From the NCBI GenBank assembly GCA_001657315.1, contig LYSV01000002.1, forward strand, positions 1 to 64,000: a stretch of 64,000 bases of DNA, read 5' to 3'. Below the pieces are notes generated by a model that was not told the DNA's origin, made no database searches, and saw only the letters and a program-made list of their open reading frames with translations. Within the stretch, counting starts at the first letter, position 1. Each line of letters opens with the position of its first letter. Positions 1,451 to 53,095 of this stretch are shown piece by piece. The DNA is from Flammeovirgaceae bacterium BBD 1991-12. Its GTDB lineage: Bacteria; Bacteroidota; Bacteroidia; Cytophagales; Cyclobacteriaceae. The position numbers were made by a program, and so were the translations under genes.

Positions 1451-2881
1451 CTAATCTTCAAAATAGCTTTCATCCACCTGGTCAAGTACAGGCGGCACTT
1501 TTTTTATCCCGTCAAGATGTCTTCCGGCTACTTTTTTTAAGCGATCAACCACCTCAGGGTGTTCAGCCGAAACGTCCCTTTTTTCAGAGGGATCCACATC
1601 CAGGTTGTACAACAAGGGTGGATCATGATGAACCGGCTTTTCTCCAACAAAAAGGGTATGGGTGGTGAAATGAATTTTCCATGGACCCGACCGGACGGCG
1701 TACAGCTGCTCCCCCTGATGGTAGAATATATCCGGGCTCACATGACCGTCGCTTCCCAGAAACACCGGCATCATGTCTGATCCATCCATTACCCTGTCGT
1801 TTGGTATGCTGGCCCCACTGAGTTTGACAATGGTGGTGTACAGGTCCATGGCCGTTGACATAGCCTGCGTCGTCCTGTTACCCTCAATGGTCCCCGGCCA
1901 CCATGCAATGGCGGGTTCACGCATACCCCCTTCCCATGTGGATCCTTTCCCCTCTCTTAAAAGCCCGGCAGAGCCTCCTTCATCTCCCTTGATCAACCAT
2001 GGGCCATTGTCACTGGTAAAAAATACCAGTGTATTCTCCGATAGTCCTGTTTCCTTCAGCGATGAGAGGATCTCCCCCACGCTCCAGTCGAGCTCCTCTA
2101 CTACATCACCGTAAAGCCCTGCAGCACTTTTTCCTTCAAAGTCCTGGGAGGCAAATAGCGGAATATGCGGAAAAGTATGTGCCAGGTATAAAAAAAATGG
2201 CCCGGACGGGTTGGATCGAATGAAGTCGAGTGCCTTTTCTGTATAAAGTCGGGTTAAAGTGCGTTGATCCACATCCTTATCAATGATGGTAGAGTCCTCG
2301 ATCAACAGAGTGCCTTTTGGAAATTTATGCTTAGGTTTCCAACCGGACAAGGTGTCCTGCATCATATCATTTGAATACGGTGTACCAAAGAAATAGTCAA
2401 ACCCATGGTTAAAAGGCAAATGCTCATGTAAATGACCCAAATGCCATTTGCCAATGATCGCCGTACTATAGCCCTGGGTTTTCACTGCTTCAGCGATAGT
2501 GATCTCTTCCTTTGGCAGCCCTCCGGTCGAGAATGGAAAAAGCACCTGAAACCTATCACCGGTCACTCCGGATCGTACCGGCAACCTTCCCGTGAGCAGT
2601 GCAGCCCTGCTGGGCGTGCAGAGCGGAGCCCCCACATAGAATTGGGTGAACTTCAACCCTTCATAGGCCATGTTATCAAGGTGAGGCGTTTTAATGGTGG
2701 GATGACCATATACGCCCAGATCTCCGTAGCCCAGGTCGTCCGTAAAAATGACAATAACGTTGGGTTTTGTATTGCTGCTCTCGCTTACAGGCCGGGAACA
2801 ACTCCATATCAGAAGGGCCAATCCGGGGAGTAACACCTTTGAGATACTTAAAATAATGGCTTTCAAAGACCTACGACTCAT
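1451..2881 (-). CDS. S1 sulfatase lipoprotein (arylsulfatase A/GALNS-like)
   Basis: Formylglycine-type sulfatase of 476 residues that would remove a sulfate ester from an oligosaccharide in the periplasm. The signal peptide ends LLIWSC (lipobox Cys28). The metal-binding FTDD is near residue 47 and the nucleophile motif is C88-T-P-S-R followed by [16 protein letters not shown] and FFTSDNGPW supply the Lys/His and Asp/Asn ligands. The pattern PVRSGV after the motif recalls arylsulfatase A and N-acetylgalactosamine-6-sulfatase relatives, so a galactose-type sulfate is a reasonable guess only. Its ATG overlaps the stop of the upstream propeller glycosidase gene by 4 bp, which means the two are translationally coupled. 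All catalytic residues are present. The maturation enzyme (FGE or anSME) is not encoded in the window. Confidence 0.92.
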
Positions 2882-4047
2882 TTTCTTACCAGGGAATACA
2901 TCTGTTCAGTTCCATACTGTCCGGAATTAAAATAGATCCTGGCCTGACCCTCTGGCGTGACCAGCATGTGGTGTCTCCAGAAGTTTACGCCCAGGCCGGC
3001 CTCCAGCTCATGTGGGTTCAGGTCCTCCGGGTAACGAAAAGGGCTGTATTCTGATACAGGTTCCCATTCAGCGTTGATCCAGTCGCCCGTGCTTTGTACC
3101 CAGCCGCCCAAAGAGGGTGCAGGTTCTCTGTGGCTTTCATCTTCAGGGGGTGTTGGGCTGCCATTGATCAGTCCGTACCAGCTTTTTGTTTTTTCATGAT
3201 AAAATATCTGTGGGGTACTTATCCATCCCTGGTTCCAATCATCGGATTGCCCCGGACGTTGTAGTACGCGTACTTTCCTTGCCTCAGGCGCATTGGGATG
3301 CCAAAAAGCCAGTACGGTCCCTGAGCCAAATTCCGCTCCGGGCTGTTTCTTCTGCGCTTTGGCAGGGTAAGCCTTGTAAAAAATGGCAACGGAATCCCGG
3401 TCAGCAAACCAGTAAGCCGTTGGCGTATCACAATGCCTGCCATCCATAAAATCACCGTCAGGAGACAGCAAGGGCTGTTTCAGGATAGTCCAGGGACCGG
3501 CCAGTTGGTCGGCCCATGCGCCCTGAATATGCTTTCTTCCCTCTAAATTGCAGGTGAATATGGACCAGTACCGATCATTGATTTTAGCTGCGGTATTGAG
3601 TTTTTTAGCCTCCATCACCACCCACCATTTGTGTTGTCTTCTGGGGTCCACCAGGTCTTCCGGATTGGCAATATTGATCTCTCCCTGCTTGGTCCAGTCA
3701 CCAGGTCCTATCGCTTCGGCAGATCTGCTGGTGGCAATACCGGTAGTAGTGTAGCGCCCGATACTGTCCAGGCCACCACCGAAATAGAACATCCGCCAGG
3801 CATTAATATCTTCATCCCAGACGATGCACGGGTCGCCGGCTACCCGGCTGTCAATGGAAAAACCTTCACCCCGTGGGAGTACACATTCGGGATCTATCTC
3901 CCAGTTGGTCATCATAAAGTTGGATGTATCCCCTTCGGTAACGTGTTCCTTTTTTTCGTTCTGTATGGATTGGCACTGCATGCAAAGACTGCATCCCACC
4001 ACCATGATGGGCAACCCCGGGAATTTCATTTTAAAAAAGTTATGCAT
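2878..4047 (-). CDS. Five-bladed beta-propeller glycosidase, GH43/GH117-like
   Basis: Predicted exo-acting glycosidase of 389 residues. The N-terminus has a lipoprotein-like signal (MVVGCSLC). The region [19 protein letters not shown] (Asp72 a candidate catalytic base) is typical of the first blade in clans F/J and GH117 enzymes. Further conserved blocks are [28 protein letters not shown] and [21 protein letters not shown] cannot assign it to GH43, GH32 or GH117 from reading alone. A close paralogue lies at 29851-31029 on the other strand; both keep the same blocks, so the family is under selection in this locus. It is flanked by sulfatases and coupled (ATGA overlap) to the one downstream, which suggests it acts on desulfated or sulfated ends made by its neighbours. 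Confidence 0.7.
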
Positions 4048-4111: not shown

Positions 4112-5824
4112 TCACCTCCCGCGTGCTTTACTCCAGGGCCAGGGTTTCACCTGTACCTTTTCCGCCCATTCTTCCCATTCGGAAGCCAGCTGTTGAACCA
4201 CGTCAGGTTTTTCAGAGGCCAGGTTTTTTGTTTCTGTCCTGTCATTTTCCATATCATATAGTTCCCAATTGCCCTTGCCTGCTCTTTCCACGGAGACAAG
4301 CTTGAAATTGCCCTTTCGAATGGCCCTTCTTCCCAGGTGTTCCCAGCAGAGCGTTCTCTCCTCTTTTGTAAAATTTGTAAACGTCGTCACCAGGCTCTTT
4401 CCCTCCATAGGGGTGATCGCATGGTTTTTGTATTCTTCCGGATAATCAGCGCCGGCTACATCCAGACAAGTAGCCATAATATCCATTACATGAGCAGGCT
4501 GGGATCGTAGCTCCCCTTTGGCATCAATTCCAGCCGGCCAATGCGCTACGAGGGGCGTGGCTATACCACCTTCATGCAGATAGCGTTTGTATTTTTGAAA
4601 GGGTGAGTTGGAAACATTTGCCCAGGGTACACCAATACTCTGATATGTTGTATCAGCCCCTGCCAGGATGTGAGGAAGATTGAATCTATGTATTGCCCTG
4701 CCATCCGGAGTTTTGTCCGGGAGATTTTTTTCAAACCATCCACCGGGCATTATTTCTTCAGCGCTGCCACCATTATCGGATAAAAAGAGAATAACAGTAT
4801 TTTCAAGCTGGCCATTTTTCTTCAGTACCTGGATCACTTTTCCGATGCCCTGATCCATCAGGTCTACCATGGATGCATGGACTTCCATGCGCCTGGCTTC
4901 CCATGCTTTGTGGTCTGTATTCTTCCACTCACCGACGGAAGTATCACGTAGCGTTAGCTGCCAGTTTTCATTCACTACACCCAGTTCCTGGAGTTTTTCA
5001 TATCTCTTTTTACGGACAGCATCCCAGCCGGCATCATATTTTCCCTGGTACCGTACTATATCTTCTTCCGGAGCGTGTAAAGGCCAGTGTGGCGCCGTAT
5101 ACGCCAGATACATAAAAAAAGGCTCCTCTTTTTTACTATTCAGATGGTCCTGAATAAACTGTGCTGCGGAATCTGTGATGGAATTTGTATAGTAAAAGTT
5201 ATTCACCGGAACGGGAAGGGGAGTATTGTTGTAGGTAAGGGTTTTGGTATGATAGAAGCCACTTCTGCCAAAACCCGCCAGGCTGCCGTAAAATTTATCA
5301 AAACCTCGTTGGACAGGCCAGTTGTGTTTTGAGCTATCCGGATGGATAAATCGTGTTACATGCCACTTGCCACACATATAGGTAGCATAATTGGCTTCTT
5401 TTAAAGCCTCGGCAATAGTGACACATTTGTTATTTAAATCAGCCCTGTATCCGTCGAAACCCCTGTCCATGTTGGTCATGGCCCCCACCCCTGTCTGATG
5501 TGGGTACAATCCTGTTAACAGACTTGCCCGTGTAGGGCAACATCGGGCGCTATTGTAAAACTGAGTATACCTCAATCCATTCGCTGCCAGCGCATCCAGA
5601 TTGGGGGTATTGATCTCGCTTCCAAAACAGCCTAAATCCGAGAATCCCATGTCATCCGCCATAATCAACAGGATATTTGGTCTGTTGCTTCCGAGCTTGT
5701 CTTCTTCCTCTTTCCGGATTTTTTCGCAACTGCCAGTCAGTATTAAAACCAGCAGCAGCCAGGGCAGGCCATCAAGCCTTACAAAATTTGTTTTCATTTT
5801 TGTGAGTGACGTGACTGAAGTCAT
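4112..5824 (-). CDS. S1 sulfatase lipoprotein, S1_4-like arylsulfatase
   Basis: Sulfatase of up to 570 residues. Two in-frame starts are possible: the ATG at 5824 and the ATG at 5797. The second gives a cleaner signal peptide (MKTNFVR then a hydrophobic run ending LILTGSC) and may be the true one. Metal motif MADDMGFSD (about residue 56), nucleophile motif C95-C-P-T-R-ASLLTGLYPHQ, Lys/His in CGKWHVT, and Asp/Asn in FLSDNGGSAEE. The CCPTR plus LYPHQTG signature and the length match the large arylsulfatases of the S1_4 type. The sulfatase half of the fusion protein at 35360-38110 is a close relative (same GKWHVT and NSPF/NTPF-KRY regions). It lies 5 bp downstream of the S1_8-like gene and 64 bp upstream of the propeller glycosidase gene, within one probable operon. 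Confidence 0.92.
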   Translation of the reverse strand: MTSVTSLTKMKTNFVRLDGLPWLLLVLILTGSCEKIRKEEEDKLGSNRPNILLIMADDMGFSDLGCFGSEINTPNLDALAANGLRYTQFYNSARCCPTRASLLTGLYPHQTGVGAMTNMDRGFDGYRADLNNKCVTIAEALKEANYATYMCGKWHVTRFIHPDSSKHNWPVQRGFDKFYGSLAGFGRSGFYHTKTLTYNNTPLPVPVNNFYYTNSITDSAAQFIQDHLNSKKEEPFFMYLAYTAPHWPLHAPEEDIVRYQGKYDAGWDAVRKKRYEKLQELGVVNENWQLTLRDTSVGEWKNTDHKAWEARRMEVHASMVDLMDQGIGKVIQVLKKNGQLENTVILFLSDNGGSAEEIMPGGWFEKNLPDKTPDGRAIHRFNLPHILAGADTTYQSIGVPWANVSNSPFQKYKRYLHEGGIATPLVAHWPAGIDAKGELRSQPAHVMDIMATCLDVAGADYPEEYKNHAITPMEGKSLVTTFTNFTKEERTLCWEHLGRRAIRKGNFKLVSVERAGKGNWELYDMENDRTETKNLASEKPDVVQQLASEWEEWAEKVQVKPWPWSKARGR

Positions 5825-20433: not shown

Positions 20434-20873
20434 TCTTTTCGTTATAATACAGAACTCCGGCTCAGTGGAAAACCATAACGATCATTGAGTTATATAGGCT
20501 AACACAGGGGTTGGAAAGAGCGGGTGAAGATTCAGGAATGTAATTGTTCCGCAAATCTTACTGTAACACCAGGGGTTTTCCGGAGGGACCAGATTGGTTT
20601 TATTTTCGCCTCATCACATTGGTAAGTCAGAAAGCAAGGTCTTTCGGGGTGTGATTTTTTTTGGTTTGACCTATTAGAAAACACAATCTTATTTGTCCTC
20701 TTAAAGAGGTTTATATGATAACCATCTACCTGATAAGCTGAAAACATATGATAAAGCCAACTCATTTTGAAGATTTTGTTTCATGGGTCACAATGGATGC
20801 CGGTTCTCACAATCGAGGTCAGTCAGGCGCTGTAGGTTTACAGAACCATCAAAAATCACGAAGTTCACCTGCG

Positions 20874-22097
20874 ATGATCTTCTCAGCGATGCAAAGTTCA
20901 GGCTCCCGTCAAACCTGTCTGTCTCTGCTTCTCACTCTGATCATTCTCTCCTGTCAACCTCCTGTCCAGGAAGAGATGGAAACACCCATTGATGAAGTTA
21001 TGAACTCAAGCCTTGACAGGGCGATCCGTCAATACAAACAAATGCACAAAGTACTTCCGGATACGCTTTTCCCAAGATCACTGGACAAAAATGATCAGCT
21101 GGTGACCAATCAGCGACAATGGTGGACCAGCGGATTTTTTCCCGGTAGCCTCTGGTACTTGTATGAGTATTCAGGAGATGAGTCCATCAAACAAATGGCG
21201 CTCGACAGAACAGCAACACTCGAAAAGGAACAATACAACAACATGGATCATGACATTGGGTTTAAAATGCTATGCAGCTATGGCAATGGTATCCGGATCA
21301 CAGGTGATAGTTCGGCCACTCCTATATTGATCCAAAGCGCTGCGTCGCTGATCAGTCGCTTCAGGGAAACAACCGGTGTCATCAAGTCCTGGGAGGGATT
21401 CAGGGAGTACAAATACCCGGTGATCATTGACAATATGATGAACCTTGAGCTGCTCTTCTGGGCCTCAAAAGTAAGTGGCGATCCAAAATACAGGAAAGTG
21501 GCCATCAGCCACGCTGATGTTACCCTTGCCAATCACTTCAGACCCGACAACAGCAGCTATCATGTACTGGCCTACGATTCACTGACGGGGAAAGTACTCG
21601 CCAAAAAGACCGCTCAGGGTGCTGCTGATGGGTCTGCGTGGGCACGTGGGCAGGCCTGGGGGCTTTACGGCTACGTTATGACTTACCGCGAGACAAAGGA
21701 TAACCAGTACCTGAGACAGGCTGAAAAGATCGCCAACTTTATCCTTGACCATCCCAGTCTACCGGAAGATCACATTCCCTACTGGGATTTCAATGCCCCG
21801 GGCATTCCTGATGCACTAAGGGATGCATCAGCCGCTGCCATAACAGCCTCAGCATTGATCGAATTGAGCGGTTATGTAAATAAAGAACTGAAAGACAAAT
21901 ACCTCAAGGCAGCAGAGACCATGATCAGAAGCCTTTCAGGAGAAGATTATCTTGCCAGGGAGGGGAAAAACGGTCACTTCATCCTTATGCATGGAGTAGG
22001 CCACAAGCCCGGGAACAGCGAAATTGATGTACCCCTAAGCTATGCTGACTACTACTTTATTGAAGCCATGATGAGATTTAGAAAACTAAAACCGTGA
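20874..22097 (+). CDS. GH88 unsaturated uronyl hydrolase, lipoprotein
   Basis: Hydrolyses the unsaturated uronic acid left at the non-reducing end by a polysaccharide lyase, through hydration of the double bond. The frame is open from 20748, but the ATG at 20874 (or 20889) gives a proper lipoprotein signal ending LIILSC, so 20874 is preferred. With that start the two key Asp residues are in NMDHDIGF (about residue 127) and VIIDNMMNLELLF (about 186), with the 59-residue spacing expected of GH88. Also seen are QWWTSGFFPGSLWYLYEYSG, DGSAWARGQAWGLYGY and DHIPYWDFNAPG. The stop overlaps a GTG of the lyase frame downstream, which makes a lyase/GH88 pair. This is strong evidence for a uronic-acid polymer. 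GH105 is less likely given these motifs. Confidence 0.9.
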   Translation: MIFSAMQSSGSRQTCLSLLLTLIILSCQPPVQEEMETPIDEVMNSSLDRAIRQYKQMHKVLPDTLFPRSLDKNDQLVTNQRQWWTSGFFPGSLWYLYEYSGDESIKQMALDRTATLEKEQYNNMDHDIGFKMLCSYGNGIRITGDSSATPILIQSAASLISRFRETTGVIKSWEGFREYKYPVIIDNMMNLELLFWASKVSGDPKYRKVAISHADVTLANHFRPDNSSYHVLAYDSLTGKVLAKKTAQGAADGSAWARGQAWGLYGYVMTYRETKDNQYLRQAEKIANFILDHPSLPEDHIPYWDFNAPGIPDALRDASAAAITASALIELSGYVNKELKDKYLKAAETMIRSLSGEDYLAREGKNGHFILMHGVGHKPGNSEIDVPLSYADYYFIEAMMRFRKLKP

Positions 22098-22154
22098 TCC
22101 CCTTGAACTCAATACCATACCTCCTCTACCGCTTCCTTGCTCAGCTGGTGCTCC

Positions 22155-22212
22155 AACTGGCGCAGGTTTTCCAAATCTGTGCACACCCTATGCACAAGGT
22201 TCTCCGAACCTT
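22155..22212 (+). repeat. Palindromic repeat A, copy 1
   Basis: Two linked hairpins: a degenerate GCGCAGGTTT-TCC-AAATCTGTGC (about 22160-22182) and the perfect AAGGTTC-TCC-GAACCTT (22196-22212). The same pair in the same order and strand occurs at 29769 and 44770. In this copy both arms of the first hairpin changed together (C to T opposite G to A, plus one G-T wobble), so the fold survived. The second hairpin lies inside the lyase reading frame and reads KVLRTF. Confidence 0.8.
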
Positions 22213-24247
22213 CGTCAGTCATGATCTCGTCCCCATCCATGGTCTGTGTTTTCACAGACCATCCCAAAAACTTCATTTCCTTGCCTTCCTGGTCTTAACA
22301 TCATTTAGCTACTTTCCAGCCCTGACCCAGACCAACCCAGACTGGAAACCTCTCACTGAAAGGTACGCTCGAGAGCAACTACATACTATGCTGGAATCAC
22401 CGGACATATGGCAGCTCTATCCCAAAGCCACCAACCGGGAAGCCTGGGAAAAAGTGCCACACTACATGAAAGACCGCTGGATCAAACGCGGTGAAGAAGC
22501 CCTGTCCTACGAGTGGACCGCCCTGCCTGCCACTCTCTTCCTGGACTATGCCCGGACAGGGAATCGCCAGCCTTACAGCAGTAAACTCTACGAAAGACGC
22601 ATCAAAATGCGCCAGCTGGTACTGGCCGAATGTATGGAAAACAAAGGCCGGTTTATCGACCAGATCATCAATGCCATCTGGCTTATTTGCGAGGAAACCT
22701 TCTGGGGGATTCCTGCGCATATTGGCATGCAAAAGGCCGGTATGGGGCTGCCTGATGCCGGAGAACCTGTTGTGGATCTGTTTGCCGCTGAAACCTCGGA
22801 GATGCTGGCATGGTCAGTTTACCTGCTCAGGGAACAGCTGGATGAAGTATCACCTCTTGTTTACCAACGGGTAAAACTCGAAGCCCGGCGCCGGGTACTT
22901 GACCCAACCCTTACCCGCGATGATTTCTGGTGGATGGGGCTGAACAAGGATCCGAAAAGAGAGAAAGTGGGGAACTGGAACCCATGGATTGCCTCCAACT
23001 GGATGGCTACCGCCATCCTTTTGATTGAGGACAAGGAAAAGCTGATCGATCACATATCGAAGATCCTGAAAGTCCTTGACGCCTATGTGGGTAAAAACCC
23101 AGCGGACGGAGCTTCTGACGAAGGGCCGCACTATTGGGGTCATGCCGCAGGATCACTGTTTGACGCGTTGGAGTTACTTTATGGAGCTACCAACGGTAAA
23201 TTCAATATCTATGATGACCCTCTTATCACTCAAATGGGCCAGTACCTCAACCGCATGCATATCAACGAACAATACTATTTCAACTATGCCGATGCCGTTC
23301 CCTACATCCGGAACAACGCATTCCTGATCTATCATTATGGCTACCGTATCAATGATCCTTCGCTAATGGATCTCGGGGCGTATCTTGTTCCTTTTGGCGA
23401 CTACAAGGAACGGGCAGGCACGCACGACGGAATGAGCCGGGTGCTACGCGAGATTTTCCTGGTGGAAGAGCTGCAGGCCAGTTCACAGGAGCATCTTTTT
23501 CTGAGGGATGTATGGATGCCAGTATCCCAGCTTATGACGGCTCGCCAGAAAGCCGGATCCGCACAGGGTTTTTTCCTGGGCGCAAAAGCAGGACACAATG
23601 CTGAAGGCCAGGGGCACAATCACAATGACGTAGGCAATTTCATTGTCTATTATAATGGCAAACCAGTGATCATAGATGTGGGCATGGCCAGCTATAACTC
23701 CAAAACCTTTAGCCCAAAGCGCTATGAGATATGGAACAATCAGTCGGCATACCACAATCTGCCCACCATCAATGGTATAATGCAGCATAACGGACGGGAA
23801 TTCAGGGCCAAAAATGTGAATCACTCTGCCGATAAAAGAAGGGCCACACTTTCTATGGATATTTCCGGAGCGTATCCTCCGGAGGCGGGATTGGAAACAT
23901 GGAATCGTGTCCTTACTCTGGACAGGAAAAAGGGGATCACGTTGTCGGATACCTATAAGCTTAACGGAACAAATGGGAAGATACAGCTTTCGTTGATGAC
24001 CATCTGCAAGGTAGATACCAGTACGCCGGGACAATTGGTCTTCCAAACGGATACTGAGAGTGGTAAAGATGTAATGATGACCTATGATGCCGAAAAATTG
24101 TCCGTTGCCAAGGAACAATTGCCCCTCAACACGAAGCATGATCCCCGCATCAAACAGTATTGGGGAGAATATATGGTAAGGATACTCTTTAGTACTAAAA
24201 ACGAAATACAGGAGGATAATCTGGTATTTCAGATTTCAGACAGATGA
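22190..24247 (+). CDS. Heparinase II/III-type polysaccharide lyase
   Basis: Secreted beta-eliminating lyase. The open frame begins at a GTG (22094) that overlaps the GH88 stop. I prefer the ATG at 22190, which gives about 685 residues. No start codon exists between the repeats and the signal peptide core LHFLAFLVLTSFSYFPALTQ, so the leader must include repeat-derived codons. An alpha-helical toroid fills the first half (EAWEKVPHYMKDRW, DDFWWMGLNKDPKREKVGNWNPW, DEGPHYWGHAAGSLFDALELL). The beta-sandwich starts with AGHNAEGQGHNHNDVGNFIVYYNG and KRYEIWNNQSAYHNLPTING, the His/Tyr-rich core of heparinase II/III enzymes. The subfamily (PL12, 15, 21, 33, 37 or another) cannot be settled by eye. The GH88 partner shows that uronic acids are cut. 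The phosphotriesterase-like gene follows after 33 bp. Confidence 0.85.
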   Translation: MHKVLRTFVSHDLVPIHGLCFHRPSQKLHFLAFLVLTSFSYFPALTQTNPDWKPLTERYAREQLHTMLESPDIWQLYPKATNREAWEKVPHYMKDRWIKRGEEALSYEWTALPATLFLDYARTGNRQPYSSKLYERRIKMRQLVLAECMENKGRFIDQIINAIWLICEETFWGIPAHIGMQKAGMGLPDAGEPVVDLFAAETSEMLAWSVYLLREQLDEVSPLVYQRVKLEARRRVLDPTLTRDDFWWMGLNKDPKREKVGNWNPWIASNWMATAILLIEDKEKLIDHISKILKVLDAYVGKNPADGASDEGPHYWGHAAGSLFDALELLYGATNGKFNIYDDPLITQMGQYLNRMHINEQYYFNYADAVPYIRNNAFLIYHYGYRINDPSLMDLGAYLVPFGDYKERAGTHDGMSRVLREIFLVEELQASSQEHLFLRDVWMPVSQLMTARQKAGSAQGFFLGAKAGHNAEGQGHNHNDVGNFIVYYNGKPVIIDVGMASYNSKTFSPKRYEIWNNQSAYHNLPTINGIMQHNGREFRAKNVNHSADKRRATLSMDISGAYPPEAGLETWNRVLTLDRKKGITLSDTYKLNGTNGKIQLSLMTICKVDTSTPGQLVFQTDTESGKDVMMTYDAEKLSVAKEQLPLNTKHDPRIKQYWGEYMVRILFSTKNEIQEDNLVFQISDR
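22239..22262 (+). repeat. Palindrome B, copy 1 (inside lyase leader)
   Basis: Perfect 10-bp arms ATGGTCTGTG and CACAGACCAT around a TTTT loop. An identical stem with a GGGA loop is at 51225-51248. Both copies lie in the coding leader of a lyase gene and in the same reading frame (HGL-x-x-HRP). Confidence 0.8.
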
Positions 24248-32168: not shown

Positions 32169-33996
32169 TGTGTTGAAACATATTGGATGTGGGTTGTTCA
32201 TTTTATGGCAATCCTATGCGTTGGCGCAGGACCTTGAGGTAACGCATGGTCCCATGCTTGGGAAAGTATCTCATAACAGCATGGGGATTTGGGTGAGGAC
32301 CTCAGGGCAAGGAGTTGTGTTTGTAAAATATGGCCCCGAAGGGCAGTTAAATGACTCGGTGGCCATTTCTACAAGCATTGAACATGATCTCACAGGCTGG
32401 GCGCGTATATCAGGACTTGAATCGAATACAACCTATTATTATCAGGTAGGAAACACGTTGAGTAGTTTTAAAACCCTGCCGGATACATCAGATTATTTGG
32501 ATTCTGTTCATAACAGAAAAGGCCTTTTCAATTTCTCGTTTGAATTTGGCAGTTGTAACTATCGCCGGCCGGAGCGGGTAGCAAAATATGATATGCCCGC
32601 TTATCTGACAATGAATCGGCTGGTCGCCGGTAAAGTGGACTTTGCAATTCAGAACGGTGATTTTATTTACGAACGTGGCCGGGGATATCCTGTTGAAGAA
32701 TGGGCAAGGGAGGTAGGGATCGGGCAAAATCAATACCCTGATTTGGTACAGCTCGCACCATCCGTAGTGGGGGTCTGGGAAAACTATAAAATGTATCTGG
32801 AGGATTCCAAAGCATTAATCGAATGGCATAGCAGAGTGCCCTCTATGTTTACAATGGATGATCATGAGATTGTCAATGATGTTTACGGCACCGGCGAAAT
32901 TGGCAGGGTACACCGCAAACCCGTTTTTAGAGATATCGCCACTCAGGCGTGGTATGACTATGTAGGGTGGAGCAATCCTGACCCCTATGATCAAAAGATC
33001 CACTTTGGCATGGCCAGTTTAAAGAAAGGGGAAGACATCCTCATTGACAGGAACGCCGATTTTTTGGAGCACAACTTCGATCTGGCTGTGAACCTGCATG
33101 TGCATTGGGGAGGGATAGAAGCAGGCTCCAGGGGAGATCAATATGATGAACTGCCAGGAGATGCAAATGCCGGGGTCTACGAGATTGTTGAGGTATTGGA
33201 CCAAAACCGCCTCAGGATCTATCCGCCAGCCAGGGCTTCAAAACAATCTGCCTATTCTATTGGCAGGCAACTTTACACAAAGCTAACCATCAGTAATGCG
33301 GAATTTTACATACTGGATACCCGCATGAATCGCGGAATGCATGATGTAAATGAGCCAGACAAGCCAGGGCTTTCCATGCTTGGGAACAAACAAAAAGAAT
33401 GGTTAAAACAGTCCATGCGGGAAAGCAAGGCAGACTTTCATTTTGTAGTATCCAGTGTCAATCTTATGGTTCCGCACCGGGGCAGTCTCCTAAAGGGTGT
33501 TCTGAAAAATAAAGATGACGCCTGGACGGTGTTTCTTGATGAACGTGAGGAGCTTATCAATTTTTGGGATAGCCTGAATGCACCGGTTTTTGTGCTCACG
33601 GCGGACCTGCACAACAGCTTCGTATCCAAAATTACGGACAACGTTTGGGAATTTGCCTCGTCTCCCCACAGTTCCAAAAATCACATGGCCTCTCATGAGG
33701 GTGGAAGAGCGGCCAATGGTGTGCAACAATTCGACGTTCGTCCCTTTGAAATGAGATGGTCTACCTTTTTTCTGGATGATACAGATAAAGAAGCCCTGTG
33801 GCAACCAACATATTGTGTAGTGCGGGTGAACAACGTTTTTAATAATCCAACCGAAGTCGGAAAAGAGCGTTGGGTGGCCTATCCGCATCCTCAGGTTATC
33901 TTTCAATATTATAGCGGCAATACTGGAGACCTGCTATATGCAGAAGCAATTTCCACCATTGGTTTTGACAGGGAAGCAGATCCGATTAAAAAATGA
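32161..33996 (+). CDS. PhoD-like alkaline phosphatase/phosphodiesterase
   Basis: Secreted metallophosphatase of 611 residues. The signal peptide ends SYALAQ. An N-terminal fibronectin-like PhoD_N domain (LEVTHGPMLGKVSHNSMGIWVRTS to SNTTYYYQVG, about 25-110) leads into the catalytic part: FEFGSCNYRRPERV, FAIQNGDFIYERGRGYP, FTMDDHEIVNDVYG and VFVLTADLHNSFVSK. The insert between DDHE and the later strands (HVHWGGIEAGSRGDQYDELPGD) is longer than in typical PhoD. The start overlaps the phosphoesterase gene and the stop overlaps the next sulfatase start (ATGA). A second, shorter PhoD-like protein is at 46132-47658. PhoD enzymes use Ca/Fe centres to cut phosphate esters. A glycan phosphate is possible, or an unrecognised ester. 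Confidence 0.82.
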   Translation: MSSVLKHIGCGLFILWQSYALAQDLEVTHGPMLGKVSHNSMGIWVRTSGQGVVFVKYGPEGQLNDSVAISTSIEHDLTGWARISGLESNTTYYYQVGNTLSSFKTLPDTSDYLDSVHNRKGLFNFSFEFGSCNYRRPERVAKYDMPAYLTMNRLVAGKVDFAIQNGDFIYERGRGYPVEEWAREVGIGQNQYPDLVQLAPSVVGVWENYKMYLEDSKALIEWHSRVPSMFTMDDHEIVNDVYGTGEIGRVHRKPVFRDIATQAWYDYVGWSNPDPYDQKIHFGMASLKKGEDILIDRNADFLEHNFDLAVNLHVHWGGIEAGSRGDQYDELPGDANAGVYEIVEVLDQNRLRIYPPARASKQSAYSIGRQLYTKLTISNAEFYILDTRMNRGMHDVNEPDKPGLSMLGNKQKEWLKQSMRESKADFHFVVSSVNLMVPHRGSLLKGVLKNKDDAWTVFLDEREELINFWDSLNAPVFVLTADLHNSFVSKITDNVWEFASSPHSSKNHMASHEGGRAANGVQQFDVRPFEMRWSTFFLDDTDKEALWQPTYCVVRVNNVFNNPTEVGKERWVAYPHPQVIFQYYSGNTGDLLYAEAISTIGFDREADPIKK

Positions 33997-35363
33997 ATAA
34001 TGCAATTCTCATGATATGGTTTAGGAAAGCCGGATTCTTATTGACGCTTGTGACCAGTTTGTCATGGGCGCAGCAAAAACCCAACCTCATTCTCATTGTT
34101 ACCGATGATCAGGGGTATGGAGACCTTGGCTGTTATGGCGCCAAAGACCTGGAAACACCCAACATTGATGCCCTGGCGGCTTCGGGAGCCCGGTTCACCC
34201 AGTGGTACGCCAACTCACCGGTATGTGCCCCATCCAGGGCCTCGTTGATGACCGGGCTTTACCCTCATAATGCAGGGGTTCCGGACTTGCTGGCCCCGCG
34301 GTCCCCTGGTCTTTCGCTGAACAGGGTGACCCTGGCGGAGGTCTTAAAAAAGACAGGATACAAAACCGCAGCTTTTGGGAAATGGCACTTGGGGGCGGCT
34401 GAAGGTTACCTGCCGAATGACAGAGGATTCGATCAGTTTTTTGGTCACCTCGAAGGCACACTCGATTATTTCTCTCATATGTATTACCTGTCCCGTGCGC
34501 CGCGGCCCTTTCATGACCTTTGGAGAAATACCGAAGAGGTGTGGGAAGAAGGCAATTACATGACCCATTTGATCACGAGAGAGGCGGTGCAATTCATTCA
34601 GGATAATAAAGATCAGCCATTTTTCCTTTATGTGGCGTTCAACGCTCCGCATCAGCCATTGCACATGCCCAGGGAATATCTTGATCGGTTCAGTCATCTT
34701 GATCCCCAGCGTCAGCGAATGGCGGCTATGTTGGCCGTGGTGGATGAGGGAGTGGGAAAAATAATATCGCAGTTGGAACAATCGGGCTTGCGTGACAATA
34801 CAGTGGTGTTTTTCATGAGTGATAATGGCGGAGCCAACAATGCCAAAAACTTCCTTTCGAATGAGCCGGAGCAGTTTTATTATGGAGCTAACAATGGAGG
34901 GTTGAGAGGTCATAAAGGCAGTGTTTTTGAAGGAGGCATCAGGGTTCCGGCCTGCATAAGCTGGCCTGGGATGATCAGCCAAGGGCTGGTTATTGACGAA
35001 CCGGGATCAGGCATGGATATTTATCCTACCTTTCTCAAAATAGCAGGAGCAGGATACCCCGGATACCCACTGGATGGGCATGACATCATACCGCTACTTA
35101 GCAACGGCACAAAGTCTCCCCGCGAATTCCTTTTTTGGGAGTATGCCGGTCAGCATGCCATAAGAAAGGGCAAATGGAAACTCTCGTTGAATACAATGCT
35201 TGATTTTAGAAGAGAAGGGCCACAGGTGTTTTTGGCCGATCTGGAAACAGACCCTGGTGAGACCCATAACCTGTCGGACCAATACCCAAAATTGGTCCAG
35301 GAACTCAGAACTCAGTTCGATTCATGGTACGAATCCGTAAAGCCCAATTTACCTTCCAAATGA
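33993..35363 (+). CDS. S1 sulfatase, arylsulfatase type
   Basis: Secreted sulfatase of 456 residues. Signal peptide with cleavage near LSWAQQ. Metal motif VTDDQGYGDLGCYGAKDLETPN, nucleophile motif C78-A-P-S-R-ASLMTGLYPHNAGVP, Lys/His in FGKWHLGAAEG, Asp/Asn in FMSDNGGANNAK, then LRGHKGSVFEGGIRVP. The overall pattern matches medium-length Bacteroidota arylsulfatases of the carrageenan/galactan type (S1_19-like is my guess). It is coupled by ATGA overlaps to PhoD upstream and to the sulfatase-epimerase fusion downstream. Confidence 0.92.
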   Translation: MNNAILMIWFRKAGFLLTLVTSLSWAQQKPNLILIVTDDQGYGDLGCYGAKDLETPNIDALAASGARFTQWYANSPVCAPSRASLMTGLYPHNAGVPDLLAPRSPGLSLNRVTLAEVLKKTGYKTAAFGKWHLGAAEGYLPNDRGFDQFFGHLEGTLDYFSHMYYLSRAPRPFHDLWRNTEEVWEEGNYMTHLITREAVQFIQDNKDQPFFLYVAFNAPHQPLHMPREYLDRFSHLDPQRQRMAAMLAVVDEGVGKIISQLEQSGLRDNTVVFFMSDNGGANNAKNFLSNEPEQFYYGANNGGLRGHKGSVFEGGIRVPACISWPGMISQGLVIDEPGSGMDIYPTFLKIAGAGYPGYPLDGHDIIPLLSNGTKSPREFLFWEYAGQHAIRKGKWKLSLNTMLDFRREGPQVFLADLETDPGETHNLSDQYPKLVQELRTQFDSWYESVKPNLPSK

Positions 35364-38110
35364 CAGTACAGAATATCCATATGGTGGTTTTTATTGTAGG
35401 AAGCATACTGCCGGCCACTTCGTGCTTTCCCTCTTCGGATCCTGCGACCGGATCAAAGCCCAATATCATCATCATTATGGCCGATGACATGGGGTATTCA
35501 GACCTTGGATGTTACGGCTCTGAAATTAAAACGCCAAACCTGGATCGTCTTGCTGCCGGAGGTTTAAAATTTACCCGGTTTTACAACGCCGGCCGTTGCA
35601 GCCCATCCCGGGCGGCATTGCTTACCGGTCTGCATCCGCATAAGGCCGGTGTAGCCTGGTTGTCCACTGAGCCAAAAGGGAATACAGTCCCGGGTTACCG
35701 CGGTAACCTCAATCATCAATCCGTTACCATTCCGGAAGTGCTAAAAAGTTCAGGATACACGAGCTATCTGAGTGGTAAGTGGCACGTTACTGAAGTGAAA
35801 TTGATGAAAGCACCCACTCCGGCTCCCAGCTGGCCTACCCGTCGGGGATTTGATCAGTTTTTTGGTACCATTAACGGGTTGGCCGATTACTTCATTCCTG
35901 TGGACCTGAAAAGAAATGATGACCCTGTTTCCTGTCCGGAAAACTTTTATTACACTGATGCGATCAGCGATACAGCCGCCGCCTTTATTTCCCAACATGT
36001 CAAAAACAAGCCGGATGATCCATTTTTTATGTATGTGGCCTATACAGCACCCCATTTTCCACTACAGGCTAAACCGGAGGACATCGCGAGGTATGAAAAC
36101 ACCTACCTGTCGGGCTGGGATGAGATAAGGGTACAAAGATTTGAACGTATGAAAAAACTGGGCCTGATCAAGGCTGAAGCACCCCTTCTCCAGAGAGATG
36201 CTGAAGTAAGGCCATGGGATGAGCTTGATGAGGCAAGTAAAAAAGAAATGGCAAAACGAATGGCCATATATGCTGCCCAGGTAGACTGTATGGACCAGGG
36301 GATTGGTCGGATCCTTTCAGCGCTGGAATCCAGTGGACAGATCGACAATACCCTCGTCTTCTTTCTGTCGGATAACGGGGCTTCTGCTGAATTCAAGTCA
36401 GAGCTGGATCCCGATCCTGCCTTGTTGGGAACGGCTGAATCTTACGAAAGCTATCGCATGGCATGGGCTCATGTGAGTAATACTCCCTTCAGGCGATACA
36501 AACACTGGGTGCATGAAGGAGGCATCCGTACCCCATTGATCGTTTCGTGGCCTGGCCGGATCAGGGAGCCCGGCAAATGGGTCCATGACCCGGCATACAT
36601 CACAGACCTGATGGCTACTGGCCTGGAAGTTGCCAACGTCCGGTATCCAGAAGAATTTAACGGTCATTCTATCCACCCGCATGACGGAGTAAGCTTATTG
36701 CCGGTGCTTGGAGGCGACAAATTGAACAGAGATACACTTTACTGGGAGCATGAAGGGAACAGGGCCATCAGAATTGGCAACTGGAAGCTGGTTTCTCGTG
36801 GAAAACCTCTGGCTCCCTATTTTGGTGACTGGCAATTATACGATCTTGATAGAGACCCGGCGGAACGAACAGACCTTTCAGCAAGTTCTCATGAAAAGGT
36901 AGCTTCCATGTCCGATGCCTGGTATAAGTGGGCAGAACGGAGCTATGTTTTTCCGCTGGACGGCCGGCCAGGAAGAGCAAGGCGGGATACTTCCGGGTAT
37001 GCGGTCCGAAAGGAAAAATTCGGGAACATGCCGGATGGAAGGGAGGTAAGCCTGTTCACGCTGAAGAATTATGATGGTGTGCAGGTTAAGATCACCAACT
37101 ACGGAGGGATCATCACTCAGATCATTACCCCCGACAAAAATCAATTCTACAAAGACATAGTACTTGGGTTTGATACATTCCAGGAATATCTTACCAAAAA
37201 CGGCCCGCACTTCGGTACCCTCATCGGACGGTACGCCAACAGAATTGCCTATGGGAAATTTGAACTGGATGGCAAAACATACGACTTACCGAAGAACCGA
37301 CCGCCGCATCATCTGCATACCGGTGATGAACGCGGCTTTGACCGGGTGCTATGGGATGCTGAGATCGTGAGAGATCATGGGCAGGAAAAACTGCGTCTGA
37401 CCTACACCAGTCCCGATGGCAATGAGGGCTATCCCGGAAACCTGGCTACTACGGTGGACTATTATCTGACCGACAGTAGCGAGCTGGTGATCGATTACAA
37501 GGCAACTACTGATAAACCTACCATTGTAAATCTCACGAATCATACGTATTTCAACCTTTCCGGTCGTGATACCCGTCAGATGAGGGGTTACGGCCCGGAT
37601 CTGGACAAATACGACCGGATCATGGATCATGAGGTATATATTAACGCTGACCGCTATACTCCTGTGAACACTTCTCTTATACCTACCGGTGAGATCCTTC
37701 AGGTAAAAGGAACCCCGTTTGATTTTACTGTACCTAAAGTGGTTTCAGAGGATGGTTCCGAAGGATATGATCATAATTTTGTTCTTAACAGAGTGAATGA
37801 GACTGACCTTGTGCTGGCTGCCATTGTTCGCGATCCAAAAACCGGCCGGACCATGGAGGTACATACAACCCAGCCAGGATTGCAATTCTATACCGGCAAT
37901 TTCCTGTCTGAAAAAATCGTGGGTAAACGGAGCAGGCAGTTAATGAAGCATGCTGGCATGTGCCTGGAAACGCAAAACTATCCCGATGCTCCTAACCACA
38001 GGAATTTCCCTGATCCAGTGTTGCGTCCTGGGGAAGTATATCACCACAAAACGATTTACAGGTTCGATGTTCGACCAGACCAAATGAAACAACAACGTCA
38101 TGAAAAATAG
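35360..38110 (+). CDS. Sulfatase-aldose 1-epimerase fusion protein
   Basis: Single uninterrupted frame of 916 residues from the ATG at 35360, which overlaps the previous stop (ATGA); the frame is open from 35324 but this start gives a lipoprotein-type signal ending LPATSC. Residues about 34-545 are a complete S1_4-like sulfatase: IMADDMGYSDLGCYG, C80[17 protein letters not shown], SGKWHVTE, FLSDNGASAE, and a full C-terminal subdomain ending near KWAERSYVFPLDGR. A short linker leads to residues about 553-916, a complete galactose mutarotase: FGTLIGRYANRI, HHLHTGDERGFDRVLWD, NEGYPGNLA, NLTNHTYFNLSG (catalytic His), YDHNFVLN, and CLETQNYPDAPNH (catalytic Glu). A desulfated free sugar would be released next to an enzyme that interconverts its anomers. 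The stop lies 11 bp inside the next gene. Confidence 0.93.
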   Translation: MTVQNIHMVVFIVGSILPATSCFPSSDPATGSKPNIIIIMADDMGYSDLGCYGSEIKTPNLDRLAAGGLKFTRFYNAGRCSPSRAALLTGLHPHKAGVAWLSTEPKGNTVPGYRGNLNHQSVTIPEVLKSSGYTSYLSGKWHVTEVKLMKAPTPAPSWPTRRGFDQFFGTINGLADYFIPVDLKRNDDPVSCPENFYYTDAISDTAAAFISQHVKNKPDDPFFMYVAYTAPHFPLQAKPEDIARYENTYLSGWDEIRVQRFERMKKLGLIKAEAPLLQRDAEVRPWDELDEASKKEMAKRMAIYAAQVDCMDQGIGRILSALESSGQIDNTLVFFLSDNGASAEFKSELDPDPALLGTAESYESYRMAWAHVSNTPFRRYKHWVHEGGIRTPLIVSWPGRIREPGKWVHDPAYITDLMATGLEVANVRYPEEFNGHSIHPHDGVSLLPVLGGDKLNRDTLYWEHEGNRAIRIGNWKLVSRGKPLAPYFGDWQLYDLDRDPAERTDLSASSHEKVASMSDAWYKWAERSYVFPLDGRPGRARRDTSGYAVRKEKFGNMPDGREVSLFTLKNYDGVQVKITNYGGIITQIITPDKNQFYKDIVLGFDTFQEYLTKNGPHFGTLIGRYANRIAYGKFELDGKTYDLPKNRPPHHLHTGDERGFDRVLWDAEIVRDHGQEKLRLTYTSPDGNEGYPGNLATTVDYYLTDSSELVIDYKATTDKPTIVNLTNHTYFNLSGRDTRQMRGYGPDLDKYDRIMDHEVYINADRYTPVNTSLIPTGEILQVKGTPFDFTVPKVVSEDGSEGYDHNFVLNRVNETDLVLAAIVRDPKTGRTMEVHTTQPGLQFYTGNFLSEKIVGKRSRQLMKHAGMCLETQNYPDAPNHRNFPDPVLRPGEVYHHKTIYRFDVRPDQMKQQRHEK

Positions 38111-39392
38111 AAAGGACCACAGGAGAGGTTTTATCAAAAAAATATTGGGAGGCTCCGCTATGGCAATCACTCTGCCTGCTATGGGATTTTCAGGAAGAAA
38201 TGAGCCTGATCCTTTAACAGCCCCTGGAGAACGAGCATCATCAGACGAAGCCTATTGGGATCTGGTCCAAAGCCAGTACCAAATAAAGCCAGATCTGATC
38301 ATGATGAATGCCGCCAATTTTTGTCCGGGTCCTTACCCGGTGAGTCGAACGATGATCGAACACCTGCAGGGGCTGAACACCAACGCCTCTTCCCAGGATC
38401 GGAAAAAATATAAACAGATCTACGAAGAAACAGTCGCGGTATTGGCTGACTACCTTGGTGCCGATCCGGAAGAGATCGCTGTAACCCGGAATACCAGTGA
38501 GAGCAACAACATTATCAACAACGGCATCGATCTGAAACCCGGGGATGAGGTGATCTACTGGGGTCAGAACCATGAAACATTGAATATCGCATGGGAAGTA
38601 CGGGCTAAACGCGACGGTTTTAAGGCCGTAGAGGTCATTACCCCTCGACAGCCGAAAACAGAAGAAGATCTGATCCGGCCATTTAAGGACGCCATGACCA
38701 AAAAGACCCGGCTGATCTGCTTTTCCCATATTTCCAATCAATCCGGTACATTATTGCCAGTTAAAAAGCTTTGTGCCCTTGCGAGGGAAAGAAATATCCT
38801 TAGCCTGGTGGATGGCGCACAAACCTTTGGGTTTATGAATATCGATGTAAAAGAAATGGGATGCGACTTCTACACCGGCAGCGCCCACAAATGGCTGACA
38901 GGCCCCAAGGAATCAGGGGTTCTCTATATTCGAAAAGACGCGCTCAACAGGATATGGCCACTTGTGATCAGCAAAGACTGGAAGTGGGAGCATGAGTGGA
39001 CTGTGAAGAATCTCGTATGTTATGGTCAGCGCAATGATGCCACCATAGCCGCTTTCAAAAAGGCTATTGAATTTCACAATATGATCGGCAAGGATCGGGT
39101 AGAGGCCAGGGTACGTGAGCTTGTCAACCGTTTAAAAGACAGACTCAGGGCTGAGGTGCCGGGAGTCGAATTTGTAACACCGCTGGAGCCGGATATGTAT
39201 GCCTGTATACTGGTATTCAACCTGCCGGACACAGACTCTGATGCGGCTGTTGCGAAGTTGTATAAAGATCACCGGATTGCCTGTGCCGGTACGCACGATG
39301 GTTTCAACGGGATACGGCTTTCTCCAAATATCTACAACACGAAAGATGAACTGGATGAAGTGATAAAGGTATTGAAGAAACTCAGGGTTTAA
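38100..39392 (+). CDS. Tat-exported class V PLP-dependent enzyme
   Basis: Fold-type I PLP enzyme of 430 residues resembling isopenicillin-N epimerase and cysteine desulfurase relatives. The N-terminus carries a twin-arginine signal (HRRGFIKKILGGSA, then a hydrophobic stretch), so the folded holo-enzyme would be moved to the periplasm. Motifs: MNAANFCPGPYPV, TRNTSESNNIINNG (phosphate cup), SHISNQSGTLLPV, LVDGAQTFGFMNID (Asp that holds the pyridine N) and GSAHKWLTGPKESG, whose Lys264 would form the internal aldimine. The start overlaps the fusion gene by 11 bp and CE15 follows after 13 bp, so it belongs to the PUL transcript. A PLP enzyme in a glycan locus could deaminate or lyse an amino sugar or amino-acid substituent, or desulfurate. 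No role is shown. Confidence 0.85.
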   Translation: MKNRKDHRRGFIKKILGGSAMAITLPAMGFSGRNEPDPLTAPGERASSDEAYWDLVQSQYQIKPDLIMMNAANFCPGPYPVSRTMIEHLQGLNTNASSQDRKKYKQIYEETVAVLADYLGADPEEIAVTRNTSESNNIINNGIDLKPGDEVIYWGQNHETLNIAWEVRAKRDGFKAVEVITPRQPKTEEDLIRPFKDAMTKKTRLICFSHISNQSGTLLPVKKLCALARERNILSLVDGAQTFGFMNIDVKEMGCDFYTGSAHKWLTGPKESGVLYIRKDALNRIWPLVISKDWKWEHEWTVKNLVCYGQRNDATIAAFKKAIEFHNMIGKDRVEARVRELVNRLKDRLRAEVPGVEFVTPLEPDMYACILVFNLPDTDSDAAVAKLYKDHRIACAGTHDGFNGIRLSPNIYNTKDELDEVIKVLKKLRV

Positions 39393-51187: not shown

Positions 51188-53095
51188 ATGATCACACTAC
51201 CTAAAAATCTTCATGGTTGCACCCATGGTCTGTGGGGACACAGACCATACTGCCTTTGCAGACTGTCATTGGCCATCTTGATGGTTCTGTTGGCTGTAGC
51301 ATCCTCTCAGGCACAGGAGGCTCATGTTCACCCCAGGTTACTCCTGGGCTCCAGGAAATGGAATGATTTCAGCGCAAGATCAGATAAAGCACCGTTCAGT
51401 ACCTGGATGAAAATTCTTGAGCAAGAAGCAGGACAAACGGCAAATACGCCGGATCCCGATGATATCACACATGAAATGGCGCCCGTCTATGCATTTCTTT
51501 ATCATACCACCAGGGACTCGAAGTGGGCAGAGCTGGCGTGGGAACAGTGCCTGCAGATCACCCGGGACACCCTGTTTCTCTCACTCCATTCCTTCGGATT
51601 ACGAAGAGCGCAAATGCTGAAAAACCTGGCCATTGCCTATGATTTTGCCTACCCGGCCTGGGCAAACGACCGGCGTCGGAGCATAGCAGATGCATTGTAT
51701 GACGGCATGATCAGGGTGAACGCCAGCATGGGGCCTATGGCCAACTACTCCATTGCCAGTAACTGGATGGGTATCCGGTATGGGGCGGTGATCCTTGCCG
51801 CCCTGGCTTGGGATAACCTGGACCATGATCATTCCAAAATAGCCAGATCGTTTTTATGGGATGCCACCAAACGTCTTCAGGATCACCTTAATGCCAATTT
51901 TCATCGTGAAGGTTGGAATGGTGAAAGCCTTGGATACTTTCATTATGCCTGGACCTGTGTGGGCCCGGCTCTGATCGCCTTACGCAACAGCCTGCAAACC
52001 TCCGATGCCTTTGAGCTCGAAAAATTCGCTCCCCATCTCATTCAAAGTATGCACGGTGTAGCCATCTCCAACGTGGCCATTGAGACCATGGAAGCTACAG
52101 GTATGAAACCAGACCTTTCGGATGACAACCTTTTTCTGTCGTCGGTCATGCTGTACGCTCAGGGTTGCCGCTTATTCCCACGTAAGCAGGTACCGGCCCT
52201 CCGTTGGATGTTGGATTATATGGGCACGGAGCTGAATCTGAAACGGTCCGGGCTTGCACTTCTTTATGCGTTGCTGTATTATCCGGTAGCTGTTCCGCCC
52301 ACCAATCCCGAAGCATTGGGTTGGCATACTTTTACCGACAATGACAAGGGAATTGTGATCCACCGAAACCGGTTTCAGGATGAAAATGATATTGTGTGGG
52401 TGCATAACATAAGCCAGAACCGTGTTCGCGGACATTCCGGTCCGGATGTGAATACGATCCGTTTATTTGGTCTGGATGTGCCGTGGATCATCGGTGCAGG
52501 CCGTACCGGAGAGATCGCCGGGCAATCCAACTTTTTTCCCGAAACTATCCGCAGGACTGAAAACGCCAGTACGTTGGGTAAGTTTTTGAGAGCGGACTGT
52601 TCTGAGTGGTTCTGCCGCACAACCGGTTTGGGCAGCAACGTGAATACCCTTGAGCATAAACGCACCTGTTTTTCATCATTTGATAGTCATTTTGGGGCTG
52701 AAGCGGTGATCGTTGTAGCAGACTCTTCAGAAAATGGTGTCCGGTGGCGGATCAATACCCCTGAATTTAACATATTGACAAAACAAAAGCAGGGATACAC
52801 TTTAACCGCGCCTAATGGCAATACGATGCAAGTAAGGGTGATAGGTTCTCCGGTCAGCGACCTCGAGGACGGACTGATACGGTATGGAGGCAGCACAGTG
52901 CGTCATAATCCATTCATAAAATACAAGGGTGTGGTTTATGAAAACAGCCGGTGGATCGACCTGTTCACAGGATCCAATGTGCTGGTAGTGATCACGCTTC
53001 AGCCTAAAGGAGTAAAGCACCCGGAGATAGCATGGGACGGCAGATCCCTTTCCATAAATGATCAACAATTTGAGCTCTACGGGCATGATGAATAA
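51188..53095 (+). CDS. Heparinase II/III-fold lyase-like protein
   Basis: Secreted protein of 635 residues, predicted alpha-helical toroid plus beta-sandwich. The ATG at 51188 is the only good start: a 26-residue leader that contains palindrome B (read as HGLWGHRPYC) precedes the signal core LSLAILMVLLAVASSQAQ. The toroid begins HPRLLLGSRKWNDF and contains NYSIASNWMGIRYGAVILAALA, FHREGWNGESLGYFHYAW. In the sandwich, HNISQNRVRGHSGPDVNTIRLFGLDVPW corresponds to the His/Asp-rich strand of heparinase II/III enzymes (cited in part). It differs strongly from the lyase at 22190, so the two probably cut different bonds. It belongs with the GH50-like gene to the second unit. Subfamily not assigned. 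Confidence 0.7.
   Translation: MITLPKNLHGCTHGLWGHRPYCLCRLSLAILMVLLAVASSQAQEAHVHPRLLLGSRKWNDFSARSDKAPFSTWMKILEQEAGQTANTPDPDDITHEMAPVYAFLYHTTRDSKWAELAWEQCLQITRDTLFLSLHSFGLRRAQMLKNLAIAYDFAYPAWANDRRRSIADALYDGMIRVNASMGPMANYSIASNWMGIRYGAVILAALAWDNLDHDHSKIARSFLWDATKRLQDHLNANFHREGWNGESLGYFHYAWTCVGPALIALRNSLQTSDAFELEKFAPHLIQSMHGVAISNVAIETMEATGMKPDLSDDNLFLSSVMLYAQGCRLFPRKQVPALRWMLDYMGTELNLKRSGLALLYALLYYPVAVPPTNPEALGWHTFTDNDKGIVIHRNRFQDENDIVWVHNISQNRVRGHSGPDVNTIRLFGLDVPWIIGAGRTGEIAGQSNFFPETIRRTENASTLGKFLRADCSEWFCRTTGLGSNVNTLEHKRTCFSSFDSHFGAEAVIVVADSSENGVRWRINTPEFNILTKQKQGYTLTAPNGNTMQVRVIGSPVSDLEDGLIRYGGSTVRHNPFIKYKGVVYENSRWIDLFTGSNVLVVITLQPKGVKHPEIAWDGRSLSINDQQFELYGHDE
51225..51248 (+). repeat. Palindrome B, copy 2 (inside second lyase leader)
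   Basis: Arms ATGGTCTGTG and CACAGACCAT, identical to copy 1 at 22239-22262, with loop GGGA in place of TTTT. It lies 37 bp after the start codon. Confidence 0.8.

Follow-up and report, generated by a model that had tools for sequence, protein, structure and literature searches.

Why should one polypeptide carry both a sulfatase and a mutarotase, and does such a chain act as an enzyme of two consecutive steps or is it an accident of gene joining? The question is raised by a gene in the first 64,000 nucleotides of contig LYSV01000002.1 (assembly GCA_001657315.1) of Flammeovirgaceae bacterium BBD 1991-12, a member of the Fulvivirga group; this stretch is referred to below as the window. We found that both folds lie in one chain, that their catalytic residues are intact and that the fusion is conserved in a second species, Fulvivirga sp. 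M361, observations which together argue that the gene probably specifies a genuine bifunctional, exported and probably lipid-anchored enzyme that would carry out two consecutive steps in the breakdown of a sulfated polysaccharide. The parts of the gene, including those located by comparison with the solved sulfatase 7all and with the human mutarotase GALM, are as follows.

35360-38110, plus strand: sulfatase-mutarotase fusion gene, 916 amino acids (928 if the alternative upstream ATG at 35324 were used)
35360-35425, plus strand: signal segment at the N-terminus with Cys22 as its last residue (PATSC here, LITSC in M361); by eye it resembles that of a lipoprotein
35459-36637, plus strand: Pfam Sulfatase domain PF00884 (E-value 2.5e-60; profile positions 1-300 of 301; far above the cut-off)
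35597-35611, plus strand: formylglycine motif CSPSR, residues 80-84, with Cys80 and, just before it, Arg79 (motif search)
35774-35788, plus strand: GKWHV motif, from residue 139 (motif search)
36368-36379, plus strand: SDNG motif, residues 337-340, with Glu344 four residues past its Gly (motif search and 7all alignment)
36956-37000, plus strand: linker of about 15 residues (about 533-547), predicted to be flexible, with low model confidence (below 50 for residues 533-546)
37001-38077, plus strand: aldose 1-epimerase (mutarotase) half, residues 548-906, with Pfam PF01263 at 37052-38062
37316-37318, plus strand: His653, matching the LHGG His of human GALM (alignment and motif search)
37541-37543, plus strand: His728, the His of TNHTYFNL, a motif starting at residue 726 (alignment and motif search)
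37967-37969, plus strand: Glu870, the Glu of CLETQ, a motif starting at residue 868 (alignment and motif search)

The open frame extends from 35324 to 38110 on the plus strand, is free of stops from its longest start and holds the whole fusion; together with the two Pfam domains and the M361 ortholog, it confirms the initial annotation in placing sulfatase and mutarotase in a single unbroken frame. The ATG at 35360 overlaps the stop codon of the upstream sulfatase gene as ATGA and, because the M361 ortholog starts at the aligned position, is likely to be the start of the fusion in preference to 35324; the initial annotation had thus given the better coordinate. The call of a lipoprotein-like segment at Cys22 follows the lipobox rule. 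A crude lipobox pattern scan, which was positive for 16 of 32 mutarotases and 16 of 48 sulfatases, was too crude and was not used as evidence.

The sulfatase half comprises residues from about 32 to 531. Its closest solved sequences were 7all (E-value 7.9e-120), which we take to be BT4683 of Bacteroides thetaiotaomicron, and the Pseudomonas aeruginosa arylsulfatase 1hdh (4.7e-89). Arg79 and Glu344 were aligned with the corresponding residues of 7all, presumably R72 and E335. Among the columns conserved in at least 90% of relatives (up to 45 rows), the window protein keeps 108 of 110 and the M361 protein 107 of 110. With CSPSR at residues 80-84 inside the PF00884 domain, a form of the formylglycine motif given as [CS]-x-P-x-R in passages of PMC5066984, this half is predicted from its sequence to be a type I (S1) formylglycine sulfatase. 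In addition, 1hdh is listed as S1_4 in those passages, and the label S1_4-like proposed earlier fits the half over its full domain, by its PDB relatives 7all and 1hdh. According to passages of PMC10154612, the S1_4 sulfatase BT4683 takes the O3 sulfate off internal galactose, with a Glu and an Arg binding O2, and is endo-acting, with little affinity for the galactose monosaccharide. A second S1_4-like sulfatase, at 4112-5824 on the minus strand of the window, shares 44-47% identity with the sulfatase half of the fusion and has no mutarotase.

The mutarotase half matched PF01263 (Aldose_epim) over profile positions 2-299 of 299 (E-value 5.1e-90, far above the cut-off), and the full domain with His728 and Glu870 places it with the aldose 1-epimerases/galactose mutarotases, a class name that does not establish galactose itself as the sugar. 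The NCBIfam subfamily model NF008277 (galactose-1-epimerase) scored 285.5 bits against a cut-off of 240. Matching residues for the whole set that we take to be catalytic in human GALM were found in the alignment, namely Asn627, Arg628, His653, His728, Asp804, Gln838 and Glu870. The claim that both active sites are intact was therefore upheld, by CSPSR, GKWHV and SDNG in the one half and by His728 (TNHTYFNL) and Glu870 (CLETQ) in the other.

Conservation within this half was scored over 33 rows, of which 32 were standalone mutarotases and one was a fragment from genome G073, which is from a different genus within the family. In each fusion, 103 of the 115 columns conserved in at least 90% of relatives are kept and 12 are not, and 11 of these departures are common to the window and M361; specifically, residue 654, right after His653, is Thr or Ser in the fusions vs Gly in 32 of 32 standalone mutarotases. 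Near-fixed columns altered in both species, with the change from Gly beside His653 among them, would suit a scheme in which a sulfated sugar at the reducing end is accepted by the sulfatase as one anomer only, the mutarotase refilling that anomer before desulfation, as would the activity of the GalM-family enzyme HsSQM on the sulfo-sugar sulfoquinovose (abstract of PMC5902678). We nevertheless consider this order of events improbable, since sulfoquinovose is a sulfonate and not a sulfate ester, galactose, glucose and glucuronic acid are substrates of HsSQM too (same abstract), the departures Ala626, Gln838 and Asn873 are the residues found in human GALM and need not signal a new substrate, and BT4683 is endo-acting (passages of PMC10154612).

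An AlphaFold2 model built from a 29-row alignment predicted both folds, with a mean predicted local distance difference test score (pLDDT) of 82.4, a predicted template modelling score of 0.65 and values below 50 in the linker. With VIA-align, model residues 32-532 were superposed on 7all (Z 45.4, root mean square deviation 2.3, 464 aligned) and residues 546-905 on human GALM 1snz (Z 44.9, root mean square deviation 1.9, 333 aligned), and the top ranks in Foldseek were likewise S1_4-type sulfatase and GALM-type structures. This second model replaced a first one (pLDDT 78.9) in which the C-terminus of the sulfatase was bad and 18 sulfatase-only alignment rows spilled into the mutarotase columns.

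The genome of M361 was found to contain an orthologous fusion (L013 11368-14100) as a 910-amino-acid open frame with both Pfam domains and 77% identity, so that conservation in a second species is established. Stops flagged for this genome in the genus search fall in the ends of the alignment, beyond the open frame. The source of the window is a draft assembly of 282 contigs, in which two separate genes might have been wrongly joined by misassembly or a frameshift. Because the same fusion occurs in the independent M361 genome, in one frame, gap-free across the linker and within a locus of the same gene order, this error, which the initial annotation had named as a possible refutation, was not found and has a negligible chance of explaining the gene. 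When the 24-kilobase M361 locus was compared with 20 other window genes, 10 matched at 71-87% identity in the same order; of the remainder, one had a 42% match at a place better taken by another and nine had no match at E-values up to 1e-30, some of them lying beyond the end of the locus. The genes on either side of the fusion are among those shared.

33993-35363, plus strand: upstream sulfatase gene, its ortholog 79% identical and at the same place in M361
38100-39392, plus strand: downstream gene of the class-V aminotransferase fold, its best NCBIfam match being PvdN, below the cut-off; M361 ortholog 73% identical

Between the window and M361, identity was 78.0% in the sulfatase half, 69.0% over residues 532-560 around the linker, where the alignment had no gap, and 79.4% in the mutarotase half. 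By the NG86 method, dN (nonsynonymous divergence) was 0.141 in each half and dS (synonymous divergence) was saturated. Because dN is equal and the halves are similarly identical, both appear to be under comparable constraint. These values bear on the suggestion, made in the initial annotation, that the mutarotase domain binds sugar and thereby targets the sulfatase, a role here taken to be non-catalytic. Carbohydrate-binding modules are common on such enzymes, but the idea is disfavoured: both species retain the catalytic residues of the mutarotase, the G073 fragment has the His and Glu motifs as well, and a half as conserved as the sulfatase itself argues in the same direction; we regard it as very improbable.

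The distribution of the fusion was surveyed in genome sets that overlap, and in all but the genus set at most the best two to five candidates per genome were scored, so that a divergent fusion could be missed; M361 was counted once as one genome. Complete fusions were found in 2 of 15 genomes of the genus (E-value up to 1e-120; any match in 4) and, with the full-length query at E-values up to 1e-150, in 2 of 390 of the family (any match in 13), 1 of 390 of the order (any match in 4) and 1 of 316 of the phylum (any match in 3), the single case in the last two sets being that of the window itself. At E-values up to 1e-140 there was none among 159 genomes of Planctomycetota, the phylum of genome G1013 (any match in 8), or among 155 of Verrucomicrobiota, the phylum of G1016 (any match in 3). 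The mutarotase half alone, at E-values up to 1e-70, matched in 182 of 245 family genomes, and among the matches listed only the frames of the window (946 amino acids) and M361 (919) exceeded 500; in a further set, 10 of 13 genomes matched and the longest frame was 476. A search of genome contigs gave 12 loci with one fusion, that of M361, while 251 plasmid records matched, none with a single place covering more than 80% of the query, and viral contigs contained no matching stretch. Frames of 632-750 amino acids with an S1_4 sulfatase had been suspected of being fusions; by eye, those of L092 and L104 carry other C-terminal extensions and no mutarotase. The fusion is thus rare and narrowly spread, and the expectation that it would be conserved in many genomes did not hold, two genomes having it complete and a third locus, in G073, being cut by a contig end.

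So narrow a distribution, with two complete examples, is what might be expected if the fusion were accidental and harmless, that is, if a stop codon and a signal peptide had been lost and the halves, uncoupled and each with its own substrate, had gained nothing beyond a fixed ratio and location. The linker is short and predicted to be flexible, and the genome also holds a transporter-sulfatase chain whose nearest transporters within the genus are separate proteins, so that fusions do occur in it. This explanation is possible, yet somewhat unlikely, as the fusion has stayed intact even though synonymous sites have become saturated between the two species, and the region around the linker is 69% identical and free of gaps. 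The transporter-sulfatase chain lies outside the window (G000:C222:40907-43840, minus strand; L088 7908-10841) and has 977 amino acids, with an MFS transporter (PF00083, 36-481) followed by a sulfatase (PF00884, 521-874). Its closest transporters, 68-69% identical, are those of M361 and G012, in separate frames of 468 and 491 amino acids, and the joined form was present only in this genome among the 15 of the genus.

The locus in G073 probably represents a third fusion. Its contig begins inside a mutarotase, leaving the fused state unseen, and the mutarotase fragment, which shares 70% identity with its fused counterpart, is followed by the same aminotransferase gene; other matches to the sulfatase half in this genome were at most 48% identical (E-value up to 1e-30). 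The neighbouring aminotransferase, at E-values up to 1e-150, occurred in 3 of 295 family genomes (those of the window, M361 and G073), each time beside this type of mutarotase, which indicates that the neighbourhood of the fusion is itself rare. In the mutarotase tree, G073 fell inside the fusion clade (100/100), which stands on a long branch (0.72). Despite coming from another genus, the G073 fragment (L038, contig C326) grouped with M361 and not with the window (97/75), a grouping that hints that the locus moved from one genus to another. In the sulfatase tree, the two fusions formed one clade (100/100) among standalone Bacteroidota sulfatases, its placement being weak (flanking forks 84/64 and 83/53). 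Both trees fit a single origin of the fusion, which may have arisen by joining of a sulfatase to a mutarotase that lacked its signal peptide.

The surroundings identify the window, by its gene content, as a polysaccharide-utilisation locus. PF00884 was found in 11 of the window proteins scanned, and there are two SusC/SusD-like pairs, two glucuronyl-esterase-like proteins and an agarase-like protein, presumably of GH86, in addition to the following two genes.

20748-22097, plus strand: relative of GH88 unsaturated glucuronyl hydrolases, nearest to 3wiw (365.6 bits), which we take to be of the heparin type
22094-24247, plus strand: polysaccharide lyase, most like PL33 structures (418.6 bits)

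The PL33 structure entries are named in passages of PMC11848413, where the PL33 substrates are glycosaminoglycans and gellan. Because sulfatases occur together with a PL33-like lyase, a GH88 relative and glucuronyl-esterase-like and agarase-like proteins, the target of the locus would seem to be a sulfated polysaccharide containing uronic acid. Coupled desulfation and anomer exchange is plausible in this setting. The N-terminal formylglycine sulfatase would take a sulfate ester off a sugar of an oligosaccharide or monosaccharide, and the C-terminal mutarotase, held on its flexible linker, would then convert the free reducing sugar back and forth between its alpha and beta anomers, supplying whichever of the two is preferred by the enzyme or transporter that follows; we infer the export, the activity of each half, the order of the steps and the benefit of tethering. 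A more specific version, which we regard as unlikely, would have the two activities coupled, with desulfation and anomer flipping in either order at the reducing sugar of a sulfated, uronic-acid-containing polysaccharide not yet described; that sugar, as one defined anomer or in open-chain form, would pass to the adjacent, apparently Tat-exported pyridoxal phosphate enzyme. If true, control of the anomer would be an extracytoplasmic step in sulfated-glycan breakdown.

Several observations weigh against coupled action. Because the complete examples number two, no case for a benefit of joining can be built on recurrent origin. Apart from the fusions, 60 fetched loci encode an S1_4-like sulfatase scoring above 250 bits (23 spanning 11.6-21.6 kilobases and 37 spanning 3.1-6.5 kilobases, several of them covering one place), and no mutarotase gene was detected in any of them (tblastn, E-value up to 1e-20), so that among such loci the only mutarotase was that of the fusion itself and the pairing was not seen outside it. 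A mutarotase gene beside some sulfatase gene does occur, as shown by L082 (from G1013), where a sulfatase gene comes after the mutarotase gene; that sulfatase is distant (27% identity, 110 bits). The score against the Leloir equivalog TIGR02636 (galM_Leloir) was 310.1 bits, below the cut-off of 397.65, and we therefore do not name the mutarotase half a Leloir GalM equivalog. In addition, the best-studied S1_4 relative, BT4683, fits poorly with a sulfatase whose product is a free sugar because it is of the endo type.

A few other proteins of the window may be mentioned. The PvdN-like protein at 38100-39392 has, by eye, a twin-arginine-like (Tat) N-terminus and lies inside a polysaccharide locus. 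A 635-amino-acid protein at 51188-53095 (plus strand), adjoining the agarase-like protein, had no Pfam or PDB sequence match, and a 389-amino-acid protein at 2878-4047 (minus strand), flanked by two sulfatase genes, had no Pfam match.

Work on the extracytoplasmic degradation of polysaccharides has, to our knowledge, seldom taken anomer exchange into account. A mutarotase tied to a sulfatase points to a step at which the anomer may matter, and the fusion offers both a direct route to identifying the sugar released by the locus and a ready two-activity enzyme for testing. In agreement with the initial annotation, which knew of no described enzyme of this architecture, no sulfatase-mutarotase enzyme was described by title or abstract opening in the best-matching literature under CC0, CC BY or CC BY-SA licences, nor was the pairing mentioned in passages of PMC5066984, PMC10113389, PMC6499787 and PMC9096561. 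Fusions of a sulfatase with another enzyme (P36) and of a mutarotase with another enzyme (Gal10) are already known, and it is the pairing of sulfatase with mutarotase that was not found in the literature covered.

Compared with the known systems, the whole sulfatase half aligns with S1_4 sulfatases such as 7all and AtsA of P. aeruginosa (1hdh), and it shares with 7all the formylglycine motif, GKWH, SDNG, the Arg preceding the formylglycine Cys and the Glu that follows DNG; unlike these single-function chains, however, the fusion continues into a mutarotase. The second half has the same fold and catalytic residues as GALM/GalM (human 1snz, Lactococcus 1l7j), which are free-standing, whereas here it follows a sulfatase, as the C-terminal part of a chain that begins with a signal segment. 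Another sulfatase fusion is represented by 6hr5, the S1_25 module of a Formosa rhamnosidase, which we take to be the P36 protein. According to passages of PMC8511951, P36 of Formosa agariphila combines an S1_25 sulfatase with a GH78 rhamnosidase for consecutive steps in ulvan breakdown; the window protein likewise has a sulfatase and a second catalytic domain in one chain and, by analogy, may act consecutively, but its second domain is an epimerase and not a glycoside hydrolase, and its sulfatase is of another S1 subfamily. Yeast Gal10 (1z45), a UDP-galactose 4-epimerase joined to a mutarotase, resembles the fusion in that it is a bifunctional sugar enzyme with the mutarotase placed C-terminally, and differs in its partner, a UDP-sugar epimerase in place of a sulfatase. 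Finally, HsSQM/YihR is likewise a GalM-like mutarotase, with a role in degrading an acidic sugar that contains sulfur, although that sugar is a sulfonate and the enzyme is not described as fused in the abstract of PMC5902678.

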